Below are positions 26,734 to 33,439 of a DNA stretch of 50,778 nt, piece by piece. Origin of the DNA: Ectothiorhodospiraceae bacterium (lineage in GTDB: Bacteria > Pseudomonadota > Gammaproteobacteria > XJ16 > Halofilaceae); assembly GCA_007134775.1 (NCBI GenBank), contig SLKC01000108.1, forward strand, positions 1 to 50,778. The letters are read 5' to 3'. Under the pieces are notes generated by a model that was not told the DNA's origin, ran no database searches, and saw nothing but the letters and a program-made list of their open reading frames with translations. The translations under genes were made by a program, and so were the position numbers. Position 1 is the stretch's first letter. Each line of letters begins with the position of its first letter.

Positions 26734-27378
26734 CTACTCCGAAGTGAACCGGATGTTGCCGTACCAGGCTGCCATCTCCTCGCCGACATCATCGCAATCG
26801 GTCATGATGGCGACGGCGTTGATCTCGTCGAGATCGCGATCGTGGTAGCGCGCGAAGTCCTCGATGACGTTGCGCCGCTCGGTCTGCCAGCCACTGCCGG
26901 CGTCGTCGCCACTGCGTACCGCGATCATTCGGGCCTGTGAGGCGTAGGCGTTGGGCCAGTCGGTGCCCACTTCCTTCTCGCTCGCCCAGACATAGTTGAG
27001 CGCGCGCGTGCGCCAGCGCAGAATACGGTGCTCGTCGACGACGTAGAGCCGGGCGGCGTAGTCGTCACCGGCCTTCACGGTCTCGTCGATGCCGCTGAAG
27101 GTCTCGTCGACCCGCCACTCCCATTCCAGGATCGGGGTTTCCGATAGGTTGATATCCTCCTCGTAGAAGAGGCCGGAGGCCGTCCCCTCGGTGCAGTGGG
27201 CATGAATCGCCTCGCGGCCGTCGATCTCGACGAGCTGGTAGTCCGTCTCGCCCGCGAACGAGTGCGGTTCCCACTCGATGATGTCTGCCGGGGTGAACGC
27301 AAGCTCAGCGTGGGACGCAGTCGGCAAGCCCAGAGCGAGTACGAGGCAGGCTGCGCCGATTTGCGGGGTCTTGTTCAT
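26734..27378 (-). CDS. DUF3047 exported protein
   Basis: The 214-residue protein has a clear Sec signal peptide (MNKTPQIGAACLVLALGLPTASHA, predicted cleavage after ASHA). It then has a DUF3047 domain: TDYQLVEIDGREAIHAHCTEGTASGLFYEEDI, LEWEWRVDETF, GDDYAARLYVVDE, the strongly typical NYVWASEKEVGTDWPNAY, then VRSGDDAGSGWQTERRNVIEDFARYH and IAVAIMTDCDDVGEEMAAWYGNIRF-like ending. The fold is thought to be beta-sandwich-like, and no enzymatic role is known. It should be periplasmic. The ATG at 27378 is preferred because GGAGGATG lies just before it and the signal peptide follows directly. Confidence 0.85.
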   Translation of the reverse strand: MNKTPQIGAACLVLALGLPTASHAELAFTPADIIEWEPHSFAGETDYQLVEIDGREAIHAHCTEGTASGLFYEEDINLSETPILEWEWRVDETFSGIDETVKAGDDYAARLYVVDEHRILRWRTRALNYVWASEKEVGTDWPNAYASQARMIAVRSGDDAGSGWQTERRNVIEDFARYHDRDLDEINAVAIMTDCDDVGEEMAAWYGNIRFTSE

Positions 27379-27543
27379 CGCATCCTCCGAAATCCGCCTT
27401 GGCATGACGTCGCGTATTCTCTGCTGGGGTGCCCTTGGCCACCATGCGCGATCTTACGTAGACAGTGCCAGGTGTCTGGTGTTGCGGAGCGGGTCGTGGC
27501 ACGGTAGCCGGCCAAGCGCAGCCCGAAGAAGGAGTAGCCGCCG

Positions 27544-27852
27544 ATGACCGGGACGCCCCGCCTGATCTTCAGTGCCCGCGCCGTCGAACGTCTGCGCGCC
27601 GTGCTCGACGACGAGGGCGGTGATGTCCGGCTGCGGGTTACCGTCTTCGGCGACGAGACCGAGCCACAGTTCGGCTTCTCGCTGGAGCGCGAGGTCGGGC
27701 CCGAGGATACCGTCGTCGAGTTCGGCCAGATCGACGTGGTGCTGGACGCCCAGAGCGCCGCGGCGCTCGACGGCAGCGAGATCGACTATCTCGATGATGA
27801 TCAGGGCGAGCGCTTCATCGTCCGTGCGCAGCAGCCTCAGGGGCTTTGGTAA
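27544..27852 (+). CDS. A-type Fe-S carrier-like protein lacking all cysteines
   Basis: The 102-residue protein aligns along its length with the HesB/IscA/ErpA fold. IFSARAVERLRAVLDDEGGDVRLRVTVFG matches the N-terminal helix and first strand, QFGFSLEREVGPEDTVVEFGQIDVVLDAQSAAALDGSEIDYLDD matches the middle, and GERFIVRAQQPQGLW replaces the usual end. All three cluster-binding cysteines are missing: GCSGFQY is replaced by DETEPQFG, and the CxC tail is replaced by PQGLW. There is no Cys at all, so it cannot carry a cluster in the normal way. AAGGAG lies about 10 bases before ATG 27544. It is divergent from the DUF3047 gene. Fold assignment is fairly sure, function unknown. Confidence 0.8.
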   Translation: MTGTPRLIFSARAVERLRAVLDDEGGDVRLRVTVFGDETEPQFGFSLEREVGPEDTVVEFGQIDVVLDAQSAAALDGSEIDYLDDDQGERFIVRAQQPQGLW

Positions 27853-27857
27853 GTCGC

Positions 27858-29546
27858 TCAGTCGGGCGTCGCGACGTCGACGATGACGGGGTCGTGATCG
27901 GAGGAGCGCCAGGGGCCAGCGACTGGCCGGATCTCGTGGAGCTCCGCGGGCTCATCGGCGTTGATGTCCCAGACCGCCACGCCCTCGACGCTGTCGGCCA
28001 GCGCCTCGGAGGCGAGGGCCACGTCGAGGTTGCCCGACATGCCGCGAAAGACGTAGGTCGAGCGCGCCGCTGGCGGCAGCCGCCGCAGCAGGTCACCGTA
28101 GCCCGCCTGCGCGAGTAGCTCGACCGGATCCTCGCGCGCATAGCTGTTGATGTCGCCGATGATCAGGACGCGCTCCGTGCCCGTCTCCTCGCGCTTGCGC
28201 GCGAGGAACTGGGCGAGCGCCTGCGACTGCTCCGTGCGGCGCTCGTTCCAGCAGCCCTGGCCGCGGTCGACGTCGCCCTCGTCGGGACAGCCGCGCTTCG
28301 CCTTGTGGTGGACCACGGCGACGAGTTTGCCGGGGCCATCGTCGCCGAAGCGGAAATGGGCCGCTATCGGCGGGCGGTGGTGGACGGGGTCGTCGTCGAA
28401 GAAGGGCCCGGCGACGGGTTCGACCCGCTCGGGATCCCAGGCCAGTGCGACCCGGATGCGATCGGTGCCGACGGGCGCGTCGACGTTGAAGTGGGCATAG
28501 CCGCCTGCGACGCCGGCCGCCTCGCCCAGGCGCTGCGCCAGATCCGCGACCGCGGCCGGCTCGTTCTCCACCTCGACGATCCCGAAGAGATCGGGCCGCA
28601 GGCCCGTGGCGACCGCCTCGAGCTGTTCGCGCTGGCGTGTCAGCTCGGCCTGGGTCTGTGCGCCGCGATCACCCAGCGTGAGGAAGTAGTCCTCGACGTT
28701 GAACCCGACGATGCGTACCCCTCCGGGCGGCCGTCCCGGTGGATCGGGACGCGGGTTCGCCGAGATCCACTCGACTTGGTCGGTAGCGAGCGGGTGGATG
28801 CGCCAGTCATCGAAGGCGTGGGTCAGCACGCCCGTGAGTTCCGGGATGACGCTGCCGACCCGGCGCGTTCCCTCCGCATCGAGGAAGGGCACGGTCTCGG
28901 GGTAGGTGACGTAGCGCCCGTCGTCGAGAGTCAGTCGGCGTGCGTCGTGATCGGCGCCGTCGTAGTCGGCGAGCTGCGTCGGCTGGTACAGCCGGCCGCG
29001 CGCGGCGAGATCGAGCGTGCCGTAGCGCACCAGTTCGTAGTTCCCGGTGACCGTCAGTGGTTCCGTCACCCGTACCTTGACGCCCGCGAGTGCCTCCCAG
29101 GCGTCGCGTTCGGCGCTGGGGAAGGGCAGATCGGCCGGTTCCGGCAGGCCGGGCCGGTCGCAGACCGTGATCGCGTCGACCCACCCGATCTGGCGCTGCT
29201 CCCGGTGCTCGCTGACCTCGCCGGCGACCACGACCTCGGCCCCGGGGCCGTAGCCGCCGGCGTCGGGAGGGCGATCGGGTGTGAACACGAATGTGCCGCG
29301 CGGGGGGGCGCCGTCGTCCGCCGCCGACTGCTGGAGGAAGAACCCGCGCAGGGCATCGTCGCCACGGTAGTCACCGGTGATTACCCCGCGTACCCGGACG
29401 GAGTCGCCGACGCTCGCGACCGGCTCGGGCCCGGCGATGTCGGCGATCCGGTCGTCGGCGGGTGGACAGTCGGCGCCTGCCGGCACCGCCGCAACGAGCA
29501 GCATGAAGCCGATTGCGGCGCTGCCTCGATATCCCTTCGATTGCAT
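27858..29546 (-). CDS. Exported endonuclease/exonuclease/phosphatase protein (ExeM/NucH type)
   Basis: This 562-residue secreted nuclease has an N-terminal signal peptide (MQSKGYRGSAAIGFMLLVAA with cleavage near PAGA|DC). An OB-fold-like region follows (VASVGDSVRVRGVITGDYRG...GFFLQQSAADDG), then a C-terminal EEP (DNase I-like) catalytic domain. Active-site features are GFNVEDYF, GIVEVEN (metal-binding Glu), VVHHKAKRG, LIIGDINSY (catalytic Asp/Asn) and the terminal WRSSDHDPVIVDV (SDHDP catalytic Asp-His). Relatives are extracellular DNases used for DNA uptake as nutrient or for biofilm release. The frame is open upstream to 29858, but the signal peptide fixes the start at 29546. Confidence 0.92.
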   Translation of the reverse strand: MQSKGYRGSAAIGFMLLVAAVPAGADCPPADDRIADIAGPEPVASVGDSVRVRGVITGDYRGDDALRGFFLQQSAADDGAPPRGTFVFTPDRPPDAGGYGPGAEVVVAGEVSEHREQRQIGWVDAITVCDRPGLPEPADLPFPSAERDAWEALAGVKVRVTEPLTVTGNYELVRYGTLDLAARGRLYQPTQLADYDGADHDARRLTLDDGRYVTYPETVPFLDAEGTRRVGSVIPELTGVLTHAFDDWRIHPLATDQVEWISANPRPDPPGRPPGGVRIVGFNVEDYFLTLGDRGAQTQAELTRQREQLEAVATGLRPDLFGIVEVENEPAAVADLAQRLGEAAGVAGGYAHFNVDAPVGTDRIRVALAWDPERVEPVAGPFFDDDPVHHRPPIAAHFRFGDDGPGKLVAVVHHKAKRGCPDEGDVDRGQGCWNERRTEQSQALAQFLARKREETGTERVLIIGDINSYAREDPVELLAQAGYGDLLRRLPPAARSTYVFRGMSGNLDVALASEALADSVEGVAVWDINADEPAELHEIRPVAGPWRSSDHDPVIVDVATPD

Positions 29547-29679
29547 CGTCCCCGTCTCCCCAAGGCATCGGGGCGCGATTGTGCCAGCGCGCCTGACCGG
29601 GCGGTAGCACCATGCCCCGGTTCCGCACGATTCACGAGGGATGGGCCTCATCCCTGGTGGCCGGTGCAATCGGCGTCTC

Positions 29680-30072
29680 TCAGCTAGAGGCCTTGCTGAT
29701 TTCGCCAACCCGATCGGCGGTCTTGCGCGCCTCGATGAAGACGCGACCGATATTCGCCTTCGTGTCCGTGGAGACGGCGAGGACCTGGTCCGAGCCGGCC
29801 TGAACCAGCAGCATTCGCCCCTTTTCGCCCTCGACGAGTACCTGGCGCAGCGTCCCACTGCGGATTTCCGCCGCCGCCTGCTCGGCGAGGGCCAGCAGCG
29901 TCGCGGACATGGCGCCGAAACGATCTTCGTCGATCTCGGCTGTAAGGGCGCTCGCCTGCGGCAGGCCGTCGCTGGTGATGACCGCTACCGCCTGGATGCC
30001 CGTCACTGCCGAGTGCAGTTGGCGGATGATGCGCCGCAACGACCGCGCGAGTTCTTCGTTCGTTTTCATCAT
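29680..30072 (-). CDS. Roadblock/LC7 domain protein (MglB-like)
   Basis: The 130-residue protein is a single roadblock/LC7 domain: LRRIIRQLHSAVTGIQAVAVITSDGLPQASAL, then DEDRFGAMSATLLALAEQAAAEIRSGTLRQVLVEGEKGRMLLVQAGSDQVLAVSTD, then a C-terminal helix FIEARKTADRVGEI. Bacterial roadblock proteins such as MglB dimerise and act as GAPs or scaffolds for Ras-like GTPases; a COG2229 GTPase is encoded three genes upstream. It is the last gene of the five-gene leftward operon, 104 bases after the other roadblock-like gene. Tandem ATGs at 30070-30072 and 30067-30069 are equivalent start choices. Family call is confident; partnership with the GTPase is inferred from the operon. Confidence 0.9.
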   Translation of the reverse strand: MMKTNEELARSLRRIIRQLHSAVTGIQAVAVITSDGLPQASALTAEIDEDRFGAMSATLLALAEQAAAEIRSGTLRQVLVEGEKGRMLLVQAGSDQVLAVSTDTKANIGRVFIEARKTADRVGEISKASS

Positions 30073-30109
30073 TGCTGTAGCTGTGGTTTTCCTGCTGCGC
30101 GCACGACCG

Positions 30110-30143
30110 GCCCGCGACGAGCATGGCGACGACCGTCGCGGGC
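30110..30143 (-). repeat. Perfect 10-bp inverted repeat between the two roadblock genes
   Basis: GCCCGCGACG (30110-30119) and CGTCGCGGGC (30134-30143) are exact reverse complements separated by 14 bases. In the leftward transcript this forms a strong GC hairpin in the 104-base spacer, without a following U tract. It could be an mRNA-stability or processing element that sets different levels of the two roadblock proteins (inference). Confidence 0.6.
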
Positions 30144-30176
30144 AGGATCGGGATCGCGCCGTTATCCGGGCCGCCT

Positions 30177-30590
30177 TTAGGCGGCCGCCCCTTCGACGTC
30201 GGGCATGGCCGCGCGCGCCTTGGACAGAGCCATGCCCAGATTCGCTGAAATCCGGCAGACGAAGCCGGCGACATGCTGTGGATTCGTTCGGCTGCGGATG
30301 AAGAGGTGGATCAGGTTGTCACTATTGACGATCATTTCATTGAAATAATGATCGCCGTCATCCTTCACGCCACGGGCGTTCTTGAACATCTTCTCGATGG
30401 TCACGACATTCGACCCCTGAAACATTTCCGCAGTCGCCGCAGCCAGCAGGTCGAGCACTTCACTGGGATGCGAATCCACCGTCCGTATCCCGAGCAGCAT
30501 GCCACTATCGAGATCGACGTAGCCGGCTGCCAGGCATTCCGGCACCTTCGAAACCGCACGCTGCAGTGCATTTTCCAATTCGTCTGCCAT
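30177..30590 (-). CDS. Divergent roadblock-like protein
   Basis: The 137-residue protein starts MADELENALQRAVSKVPECLAAGYVDLDSGMLLGI, a roadblock-like pattern (helix, then strand with Y-V-D-x-x-S-G). It continues LDLLAAATAEMFQGSNVVTIEKMFKNARG, NEMIVNSDNLIHLFIRSRTNPQHVAGFVC and a terminal helix LGMALSKARAAMPDVE. It is less canonical than its neighbour but has the same alternation of two central strands flanked by helices. I recall similar proteins in proteobacterial GTPase/roadblock clusters. Two roadblock-type proteins could form hetero- or homodimers on the GTPase. AAAGGAGG lies 12 bases before ATG 30590. It is separated from the ABC-phosphatase gene by 59 bases. Confidence 0.75.
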   Translation of the reverse strand: MADELENALQRAVSKVPECLAAGYVDLDSGMLLGIRTVDSHPSEVLDLLAAATAEMFQGSNVVTIEKMFKNARGVKDDGDHYFNEMIVNSDNLIHLFIRSRTNPQHVAGFVCRISANLGMALSKARAAMPDVEGAAA

Positions 30591-30649
30591 GCTTCTCTCT
30601 CGCCTCCTTTGGGTTCAGTTTGAGATGGAGTACAGATTGCCTGGTTGTG

Positions 30650-32047
30650 TCAGCAACGCTCGCACACATCCCCCCTCGGTGTGCGCAATCGCGCCGTTTG
30701 ATGTGCCTGCGGCTGATCCGTGATCGGGGTGCTGCCGTTGCGTCGGCGCACGACCTCTGCAAAGCGCTCGAGGAACCGGACCTGTTCGTCGGACTGCACC
30801 CAGCGCGCATCGATGTGCCGGACCGCTTCGAGTGCATCCAAGGGGTCGCTTCCCTCCCAAATCAAGTAGCTGGCGAGAATCGCCCCGGTCCGGCCCTTGC
30901 CGGCGCGGCAATGCACCGCGACCACTTCGCCGGCCGTGAGTTGTTCCTCGATCCAGGAACAAAGCCCCCAGGCCTGGGTGACACTCGGTGCGCACATGTC
31001 GGGCACGGGAGACCGATGCACGCGCAAGCCGCGTGCCGCCAGCGCGGCGATATCCGGCTCGACCTGGGTGAGTGATACCAGCACCGTTACGCCCATGCGC
31101 ACGAGCGCATCGGTGTCATATTCGACCGGATGGAACACGCCCGGCATTGGCGTCCCCGCGAGACGGCCGGCGTGCAACCAGAGGAAACCCGAAGGCCCGC
31201 GCGATTCTACCGGAACGGGCGGGGCAGCCCGTACAGGGACGCCGAAAGGGGTCGGGGCGTCGTCGGCCAGCGTCATCGGATCCGCGTCCGGTGACGGTAC
31301 CTGACAGGTTCCCGTGCGGACGAACCGGCGGCCGAGTTCGCTCTCCGGCTCATCGAGCAGGCAGCGGGTTGCCCGACTCTCAACGATGCAACCACCGGCG
31401 AGCAATGCGGCCTGCCCACCCAGTTGGTAGGCGTGCCTCTGATTGTGTACGACGACCAGCACCGCGCGTCGTTCGGCTTCGTACTGGATCTGCTGCAGAA
31501 TGAACTCCGCTTCGGCATCCCCGATGTGGCTGGTGGGCTCGTCGAGGCAGATCAGCGGCGGATCAGCCGCTATCAGGCGTATCAGGGAGATCATGCGCTG
31601 CTCGGCCAGCGAGCGGTCGATGACTGTGTCGTCGAGGTAGGCCCGGTACTCGGGGATACCGTGATCGATGCAGAGCTGGGCCGCGAGATCGCGCTGGTCT
31701 CGCGGCGACAGGTGCCGGCGATCGGGGTGATTGTGAACCAGATTCTGGGCGACGGTGGACATCACCAGGCGAGCGTTCTGAGCGATCAACGCGGGACGCG
31801 GGCCGTCGTCGAGTTCCGCGCCTGCGTAGATGGCTCTCCCCCAGCTCGCAAAGGCCGGATTGGCGTCATTGAAGCCCGCCAGACTCCGGAGCAGCGTGGA
31901 TTTCCCCGTGCTGACCGGGCCCATGAGGACGAATGGCCCGGTGGGGGGGACCTCCAGGTCGACCGCCGCAAGGATTACCCGATCGCCAAAGCGGACGCCG
32001 TATTGGTCCAGCGACAGGATCGACAGGATGCGGGCCGGATCGACCAT
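30650..32047 (-). CDS. ABC ATPase domain fused to a dual-specificity/tyrosine phosphatase domain
   Basis: Residues 1-245 of 465 form an ABC-type ATPase with Walker A GPVSTGKS (43-50), Walker B LICLDEPTS with catalytic E170 and an H-loop H201 in VVVHNQRHA. The signature motif is degenerate (DRSLAEQR at 144-151 instead of LSGGQ). No transmembrane segment or permease is present in the operon. Residues about 285-440 form a cysteine phosphatase with the P-loop HCRAGKGRTG (C380, R386) and probable general acid D350 in PVPDMCAPS, resembling CDC14/dual-specificity enzymes. So one polypeptide combines an ATP-driven switch with a phosphoprotein phosphatase. It starts 3 bases after the GTPase stop. Substrate unknown; regulation of the GTPase or roadblock partners is inferred. 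Confidence 0.88.
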   Translation of the reverse strand: MVDPARILSILSLDQYGVRFGDRVILAAVDLEVPPTGPFVLMGPVSTGKSTLLRSLAGFNDANPAFASWGRAIYAGAELDDGPRPALIAQNARLVMSTVAQNLVHNHPDRRHLSPRDQRDLAAQLCIDHGIPEYRAYLDDTVIDRSLAEQRMISLIRLIAADPPLICLDEPTSHIGDAEAEFILQQIQYEAERRAVLVVVHNQRHAYQLGGQAALLAGGCIVESRATRCLLDEPESELGRRFVRTGTCQVPSPDADPMTLADDAPTPFGVPVRAAPPVPVESRGPSGFLWLHAGRLAGTPMPGVFHPVEYDTDALVRMGVTVLVSLTQVEPDIAALAARGLRVHRSPVPDMCAPSVTQAWGLCSWIEEQLTAGEVVAVHCRAGKGRTGAILASYLIWEGSDPLDALEAVRHIDARWVQSDEQVRFLERFAEVVRRRNGSTPITDQPQAHQTARLRTPRGDVCERC

Positions 32048-32050
32048 GAC

Positions 32051-32596
32051 TCACCGACCTTTCGGGTGCTGCACCAGCGTGAGCAGCGTCGTGACCGCCT
32101 GGCGCACGTCATCGGCCGCGCGTGTATCCATGGCCATCACGGGCGCGTTGACTCCCAGCGACCGGACATGCCGGCGGAAGGGGTCGATACCTGCGTTCCC
32201 TCCTTGATCAAGGCGGGTGATGCCGATGACCGCTTCATGAGTGCGCATGAACCCCTTGAACGCCGTGGTGAACCGTTCCAGTTCCTCGAACACGGTTTCT
32301 GAGCGGGCCGAGGCGAGCATGACCAGACCGATCGCGCCGCGCGTCAGTATCGGCAGCATGAAACCGAAACGCGCCTGTCCGGGGGTGCCGTAGAGATGAA
32401 CAACCTCGTTGTCATCGAGGCGAATCTGGCCATAGTCCATCGCAACCGTGGTGCGCTCCTTGAGCTTGGCCGTCTCATCGCTTGCGCGCGCCTCGGTGCT
32501 CACAACGGGGATGTCCGAGAGTGCGCCGATTGCGGTCGTCTTGCCGGCACCGGGTGGTCCTGAGAACAGAATCTTGTTGTCGACCTGGGCGCGCAT
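32051..32596 (-). CDS. COG2229-type small Ras-like GTPase
   Basis: This 181-residue cytoplasmic GTPase has the P-loop GPPGAGKTT at residues 13-21, the switch I region with TTVAMDYGQIRL, and switch II YGTPGQARFGFM, where the usual DTPGQ Asp is Tyr. The base-recognition motif NKxD appears as TRLD, so nucleotide specificity may differ. These two deviations are common in the COG2229 branch found with roadblock proteins in conservon-like clusters, related to MglA. The 30-residue in-frame upstream extension is rejected: the ATG at 32596 lies 1 base after the stop of the preceding gene, giving tight translational coupling. It probably cycles under control of the two roadblock proteins encoded downstream. 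Confidence 0.9.
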   Translation of the reverse strand: MRAQVDNKILFSGPPGAGKTTAIGALSDIPVVSTEARASDETAKLKERTTVAMDYGQIRLDDNEVVHLYGTPGQARFGFMLPILTRGAIGLVMLASARSETVFEELERFTTAFKGFMRTHEAVIGITRLDQGGNAGIDPFRRHVRSLGVNAPVMAMDTRAADDVRQAVTTLLTLVQHPKGR

Positions 32597-32597
32597 G

Positions 32598-33248
32598 TCA
32601 GCTACCACGCAGTCTGCGCAGCAGGGACGTGATGAGCGATGAACCGCCGTCAGGTTCGACTTCCAGGCCGGACTCGGGCTCGGCATCGGAGCGGTTCACC
32701 ACCCGGATGAGACCGGCACACCAGGCCGCACTCAGGAACTGCTGGACCTCCGTGCGCCCGGCGCCGGACAGTCTTGAGGCGATCGAGATCGATGTCGGGC
32801 GCCGGCGGAACAGCACGGCCAGGCGCACGCCTTGCGCACCCATGGGCACACGGGTGAGATTCGGCCACTCGGTCAGCTCGGTGACATCCGTTGGCGCGAG
32901 TTCATCGATCAGCCGGCCACGGGAGGCAGCGAAGCCGACGGTCCAGAGCAGGTCTTCCAGGCCACCCCATGCCGCCGCATCGAGCCGGAGCGTATCATCC
33001 GCGCGTAACCGACGGATGCGATAGGCCCCCGGTTCATCCGCACACAGGGGGAGCAGGTCGGCTCGGTCGGTATGAAAACGCCGTGCCTGGGACTGCACGA
33101 AAATGTGCCCGGGCGGTGTGGAGTGTTCGATGGCGATGTCCTTGCCACGCACCATGGCGCCGCGGATCGCGCTATGGAGGCATCCGCTGGCTGCGAATTC
33201 CGTAGGGTCGTTGTTGGATCCCGATAACGGGATAGCGCGCGTTTGCAT
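32598..33248 (-). CDS. Hypothetical protein, first gene of the roadblock/GTPase operon
   Basis: The 216-residue protein starts MQTRAIPLSGSNNDP after AGGAGGT, a near-perfect ribosome binding site. The N-terminal half has no motif I recognise. The C-terminal half (about residues 100-185: GLEDLLWTVGFAASRGRLIDEL, then LFRRRPTSISIASRLSGAGRTEVQQFLSAAWCAGLIRVVNR) looks like two helical bundles ending in a winged-helix-like unit, similar in character to DUF4388/PatA-type effector regions that accompany GTPases. No signal peptide or membrane segment is seen. It is tightly coupled to the GTPase gene (1-base gap). Role as GTPase effector or sensor is inference only. Confidence 0.75.
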   Translation of the reverse strand: MQTRAIPLSGSNNDPTEFAASGCLHSAIRGAMVRGKDIAIEHSTPPGHIFVQSQARRFHTDRADLLPLCADEPGAYRIRRLRADDTLRLDAAAWGGLEDLLWTVGFAASRGRLIDELAPTDVTELTEWPNLTRVPMGAQGVRLAVLFRRRPTSISIASRLSGAGRTEVQQFLSAAWCAGLIRVVNRSDAEPESGLEVEPDGGSSLITSLLRRLRGS

Positions 33249-33296
33249 TACGCACCTCCTCGGTAGCGTTCGCTGGTTCGATACGCGCACTAGGTT

Positions 33297-33316
33297 GCGG
33301 TGATGGTCATCACCGC
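33297..33316. repeat. Perfect 8-bp inverted repeat in the operon leader
   Basis: GCGGTGAT (33297-33304) and ATCACCGC (33309-33316) flank GGTC and are exact reverse complements. The element lies 49 bases upstream of the first start codon of the operon and adjacent to a weaker TATACC hexamer (33317-33322, minus strand). It could be an operator or a leader-RNA hairpin. Confidence 0.55.
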
Positions 33317-33439
33317 GGTATAAAGTTCGCGAATCCGGTGTTCTCGCGGGAGAAGTCTTCCGTCGGTAACCTGCCGCTTTCCAGGCCCGCAACTCGCTCC
33401 GTGACGTCGGTCGGCAGGCGCTTCTTATCGTTTGGGGGA

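Follow-up and report, generated by a model that had tools for sequence, protein, structure and literature searches.

A cysteine-free ErpA-like protein in an Ectothiorhodospiraceae-like genus, a candidate A-type carrier paralogue working without a cluster

Cysteine-free relatives of the A-type carriers

In the A-type carrier family, three cysteines serve as cluster ligands (excerpt of PMC8593673). A cluster-free version of the A-type fold is already known from DsrR and from the A-type domain of NfuA, and PdhI/YneR reuses the fold. In the excerpts available, the degenerate A-type domain of NfuA is described as binding no cluster and as targeting NfuA to apo-proteins, and NfuA is reported to interact with ErpA in an ErpA/NfuA complex (PMC8593673); DsrR, a Cys-less IscA-like protein, is reported as a regulator of sulfur oxidation (PMC11406059), and PdhI/YneR as an inhibitor of pyruvate dehydrogenase E1 (PMC10090944). 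Our text search of the literature listed no paper dealing with an ErpA paralogue devoid of Cys or with an operon that combines rubredoxin and ErpA.

We herein describe a gene of an Ectothiorhodospiraceae bacterium (GCA_007134775.1, contig SLKC01000108.1), located in a stretch of 50,778 nucleotides that was analysed as a whole and is referred to as the window. Its product is closest in sequence to ErpA (A-type carrier; PF01521, NF010147) by every profile used, and shares with it the predicted fold and a similar length, but it lacks the three Cys ligands together with the tail, scores far below the ErpA equivalog cut-off and occurs beside a normal ErpA. Like DsrR of Allochromatium vinosum (PDB 2k4z) and other proteins of the DsrR type, it is a stand-alone IscA-like protein without ligand Cys and with a matching predicted fold; unlike them, it has another tail and no MGFDD stretch, is placed outside the clade of DsrR in the best tree, and its gene, whose immediate neighbours encode a DUF3047 protein and a nuclease, has no known dsr link. 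The N-terminal A-type domain of NfuA is likewise degenerate and devoid of cluster ligands, whereas the window protein ends after the A-type domain, carries no Nfu domain (PF01106) and reaches only 24.4 bits against the N-domain profile. PdhI/YneR of Bacillus subtilis is a small stand-alone protein of the same fold, but it belongs to another phylum and no sequence similarity to the window protein was found. We could not file the branch of the window protein under either DsrR or NfuA.

The window gene, its product and its surroundings

The earlier note on this DNA had described a relative of A-type carriers that is devoid of cysteine and ends in PQGLW, and our analysis bears this out. The protein (Table 1) contains no cysteine, has RAQQPQGLW as its C-terminal end and matches PF01521 (HesB/IscA family) over residues 7-95 (E 3.4e-7), with 30.9 bits exceeding the gathering cut-off of 26.3. 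Among the NCBIfam models, ErpA fits best (49.8 bits, E 3.3e-13), although the cut-off of 117 for the equivalog NF010147 is not reached, and the PDB entry closest in sequence is HI1723 (2apn, E 4e-8), a protein of the ErpA type. The three Cys ligands of a functional A-type carrier are absent: in the ligand columns, defined as those with Cys in more than 90% of 71 aligned ErpA rows, the protein has Cys at none of three, and it terminates at the point where the ErpA rows go on into their Cys-bearing tail, the CGCG tail being gone. Since there is neither a cysteine nor the tail that supplies two of the three ligands, the canonical cluster should not be held. G+C content at the three codon positions (0.78/0.40/0.84) is like that of neighbour genes. 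The opposite strand is likewise open, as is common for antisense frames in DNA of 68% G+C, and the forward strand was taken as coding because of the homology. The gene is probably functional.

Table 1. Positions of the features discussed (positions in the window unless a congener locus is named)
Feature	Position	Strand	Remarks
Cys-less ErpA-like gene (PF01521)	27544..27852	+	ATG, 102 codons, stop; based on profile matches, Cys count and fold model
AAGGAG, probable ribosome-binding site (predicted)	27529..27534	+	nine bases 5' of the ATG; read from the sequence
DUF3047 gene (PF11249)	26734..27405	-	divergent neighbour, context only; E 1.2e-54
ExeM/NucH-type extracellular endonuclease gene	27858..29858	-	convergent neighbour, context only; start codon uncertain; 408.7 bits, cut-off 300
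Roadblock/LC7 protein	29680-30072	-	
ABC-ATPase fused to a dual-specificity-phosphatase domain	30650-32047	-	
Small nucleotide-binding protein, PF03029	32051-32602 (stretch searched)	-	
Rubredoxin gene, then Cys-less carrier gene after 6 bases	L066 9423-10470		congener G002
Rubredoxin gene, then Cys-less carrier gene after 6 bases	L067 9261-10299		congener G001

The IscA/HesB fold is predicted to be kept. A model built from a 37-row alignment (the window protein, a congener protein and 35 proteins of viral-contig loci) has a mean pLDDT of 83.7 and matches IscA (1r94) at Z 13.8 (rmsd 2.6, 96 aligned), followed by DsrR (2k4z, Z 13.1), SufA (12.6), HI1723 (10.3) and YneR in 9a4q (8.8). When two rows were aligned instead, helices and strands followed one another in much the same order; however, the pLDDT drops to 58.2, and we take the model as support, not as independent evidence. 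Together with the PF01521, ErpA and HI1723 matches, the model upholds the relation to the HesB fold on which the earlier note depended.

The match to YneR also bears on another explanation, in which the fold is reused and the protein regulates or inhibits an unrelated metabolic enzyme, as PdhI/YneR reportedly does with pyruvate dehydrogenase, and plays no part in Fe-S assembly. The window gene stands alone between the DUF3047 and nuclease genes, in an immediate setting that is neither Fe-S nor dsr, which suits such a role; nevertheless, no sequence similarity to YneR was found and ErpA is a closer relative than the proteins of Firmicutes, and we consider this explanation quite unlikely.

The window corresponds to contig C165 of a 3.06-Mb assembly of 201 contigs (99.6% complete, 1.35% contamination). 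No sign of a contaminant contig was seen, as the tetranucleotide profile of the window correlates at 0.994 with other stretches of its genome and at 0.98 with the congeners described below. This genome also encodes a canonical, Cys-bearing ErpA and a canonical IscA, the iscA gene lying directly downstream of an IscS-like gene (IscS-like as read from the translation); hence, the Cys-less protein is a third, extra paralogue. Separately, the reverse-strand genes at 29680-33392 resemble a cluster of the Roadblock/GTPase type that includes an unusual fusion of ATPase and phosphatase.

A phage or plasmid origin of the gene was considered and rejected. Searching by tblastn returned 4 phage and 28 plasmid records (20 of the latter listed), all below 60% identity among the matches listed; the labelled ones among these are ErpA or iron-sulfur assembly proteins, and the others had no listed feature. 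A scan of viral contigs with the window protein as query found no relative. The same scan with an ErpA alignment gave many carriers (the best 80 of 590 were kept): contigs listed as viral (L090-L169) frequently bear ErpA-like and IscA-like genes whose CGCG tails are intact, and on several of these contigs, e.g., L124 and L163, one gene of each kind occurs within 2 kb.

Counterparts in the genus and placement among carrier families

Our search for relatives covered 37 genomes, including two others of the same genus as the window genome (congeners G001 and G002), one of which is an uncultured Ectothiorhodospiraceae assembly (CAJXKK01). Each congener encodes two canonical carriers and a 104-residue paralogue without ligand Cys, its single Cys being at another position; hence a copy lacking the ligand Cys is carried by all three sampled genomes of the genus. 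PF01521 scores 18.3 on one of the congener proteins (cut-off 26.3) and does not list the other. A wider search of genome contigs found a single locus, that of congener G001. The congener pair is under purifying selection (dN 0.068, dS 0.467, dN/dS 0.145), with 27 of 41 base differences at third positions. Because both congeners also lack the ligand Cys and this pair is under purifying selection, recent local decay in the window genome is ruled out, in keeping with the earlier note, which had proposed a conserved version of the protein.

The window protein itself is more remote, being identical to the congener paralogues at 33-36 of 97 positions (34-37%), no closer than to the ErpA of its own genome (34/100), which counts against the explanation preferred below. 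ErpA, by comparison, shares 98/114 or 100/117 positions across the same three genomes. The window and congener loci are not syntenic, since the DUF3047 homologues of both congeners lie in another setting, the nuclease has no match in the two congener genomes, and the fdxA gene of the window genome is on another contig, without a neighbourhood of the congener type. Such fast divergence within the genus, the loss of ligands and tail and the lack of synteny would also fit a relic, i.e., an erpA duplicate that, having lost the ligands, drifts without function in the window species. However, the frame is intact and preceded by a predicted ribosome-binding site, about a third of the residues were retained over a long divergence, the congener dN/dS is low and no sampled genome of the genus lacks a copy; we therefore regard a relic as very unlikely.

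The earlier note had suggested a search for relatives without cysteine in other gammaproteobacteria, and such proteins were found. We searched 18 genomes further, the two congeners and 16 multi-copy gammaproteobacterial genomes, and fetched 40 matched places; 16 of these, one in each genome outside the genus (16/16, which is not a class rate, as the genomes were picked for many carrier matches), encode proteins of about 105 residues without ligand Cys. These 16 proteins are of the DsrR type, as their profile matches DsrR (2k4z) at 1.1e-39. Hence the wide distribution belongs to DsrR-type proteins, while we encountered the lineage of the window protein in its own genus alone, in three genomes. 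A profile of the trio (the window protein and the two congener proteins) run on 369 genomes of the class and 398 of the phylum gave 156-198 bits within the genus and at most 74.2 elsewhere. The ErpA-type rows inspected from the relatives and class searches carry the CGCG tail; only part of the class and phylum matches was inspected, so low-scoring Cys-less rows may be missed. The search of the 18 genomes also brought up a Cys-bearing carrier family in which a Gly-rich GxCGxCG..GGGC tail replaces CGCG, in at least 14 genomes of the class (L200-L217), and in several of them its gene and erpA are about 7 to 19 kb apart on one contig.

The window protein scores 59.6 bits against the ErpA profile, 34.3 against IscA, 27.5 against the tail-variant carriers, 27.1 against the DsrR type and 24.4 against the NfuA N-domain; seven carrier rows fitting no set were left out of this comparison, and six of ten NfuA regions gave an N-domain row. 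By hhalign, the trio aligns with ErpA at E 1.2e-19 and with the DsrR type at E 8.1e-12. In the tree (24/71 ErpA, 8/13 IscA, 8/15 tail-variant, 16/16 DsrR-type and 6/6 NfuA rows, picked randomly except that the genus rows were retained), the trio forms one clade (99/96) beside unresolved ErpA rows and separate from the clades of DsrR (100/100) and NfuA (100/100), and when either part of the trio was omitted, the other part still fell among ErpA rows. This placement near ErpA rests on long branches, and the AU test rejected none of the alternatives (p 0.67 for the trio with DsrR, 0.47 for the trio with NfuA and 0.54 for the window protein alone with DsrR). Because of these two points, a separate loss of the ligands from ErpA is favoured by the sequence comparisons, but not proved.

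A rival explanation is a fast-evolving offshoot of DsrR that would regulate sulfur oxidation in a DsrR-like manner. Such an offshoot would share the absence of cysteine and the predicted fold (Z 13.1 to 2k4z), and the tree uniting the trio with DsrR, left standing by the AU test, exceeds the free search by 3.2 log units. On the other hand, the score of the window protein against the DsrR-type profile is just half of what ErpA rows average on it (54.5 bits; the DsrR rows, from which the profile was built, average 157.8), the DsrR-type tail and the MGFDD stretch are missing, PDB searches with the window protein and with the trio profile returned no DsrR at E up to 1, and the best trees put the trio with ErpA. 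We hence judge this combination of descent and role quite unlikely.

The congener loci and possible roles of the protein

In both congeners, the Cys-less gene follows a rubredoxin gene (Table 1), whose 68-residue product is the second rubredoxin of those genomes; a second rubredoxin is absent from the window genome, in which the search gave a single rubredoxin match. Both loci adjoin fdxA and a gene of the Rrf2 family, for which NsrR is the best equivalog match (105.7 and 100.7 bits, below the cut-off of 182). Using the published NsrR consensus (excerpt of PMC1274295), we found a predicted NsrR-type site with 11 of the 12 specified consensus bases just upstream of the rubredoxin gene in both congeners, where shuffling leads one to expect 0.06 and 0.04 matches; there is no such site within the window. 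The combination of rubredoxin, Cys-less carrier, fdxA and NsrR-type site may constitute a nitric-oxide-responsive operon (predicted). This points to nitrosative or redox stress as the likely context in the congeners, whereas the window genome lacks the arrangement.

Possibly, then, the Cys-less protein is a stress partner that assists the small rubredoxin in iron loading, docking or protection, the window copy being a relocated orthologue with the same job. The tight and repeated gene order and the predicted site speak for such a partnership; against it, the window genome has neither a second rubredoxin nor, within the window, an NsrR-type site, the congener regulator stays under the NsrR cut-off, and co-location is not equal to interaction. 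We regard this explanation as unlikely. A broader proposal seems to us still rather doubtful, namely that one A-type carrier lineage arose from ErpA in a single Ectothiorhodospiraceae-like genus, gave up cluster binding in an event distinct from those behind DsrR and NfuA, and was recruited in two of the three sampled members into a nitric-oxide-responsive operon, where it would be the cluster-free partner of a dedicated rubredoxin, immune to poisoning at Cys thiols.

The explanation that we prefer, tentatively and at somewhat less than even chances, is that the window protein is a third A-type-carrier paralogue that works without a cluster as a protein-binding adaptor or regulator module. An ErpA-like ancestor would have given rise to this paralogue before the genus split; the paralogue would then have lost the three cluster-ligand Cys and the C-terminal tail while retaining the fold, and, judging from the family, would no longer hold the canonical cluster. 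Surfaces inherited from ErpA may allow it to pair with ErpA, IscA or a client of theirs, ErpA partners being the first guess because of the descent from ErpA, and cluster delivery could be modulated or targeted through such pairing; the A-type domain of NfuA acts in this way in cis, and DsrR reportedly does so in regulation. As to the decoy function in Fe-S assembly raised by the earlier note, our results speak neither for nor against it. Against this adaptor or regulator role stands the fact that the window gene shows no partner, operon or regulon tie to Fe-S assembly. We also considered that the protein may stand in for a missing NfuA, as PF01106 has no match in the three genomes of the genus; this idea has little weight, because only 82 of 369 class genomes gave such a match, so its absence from the genus says little. 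That count itself indicates that NfuA/Nfu seems far from universal among gammaproteobacterial genomes, or that a first look misses some.

If the preferred explanation is true, the fold was kept while cluster binding was lost at least three times in A-type carriers (in DsrR, in the NfuA domain and in the lineage of the window protein), and the surface of ErpA itself, beyond its cluster, would be a selected product. The window protein would then be a natural separation-of-function variant, and setting it against the ErpA of its own cell would reveal client-docking surfaces. For annotation, it carries a warning that a match to PF01521 need not mean an Fe-S carrier.
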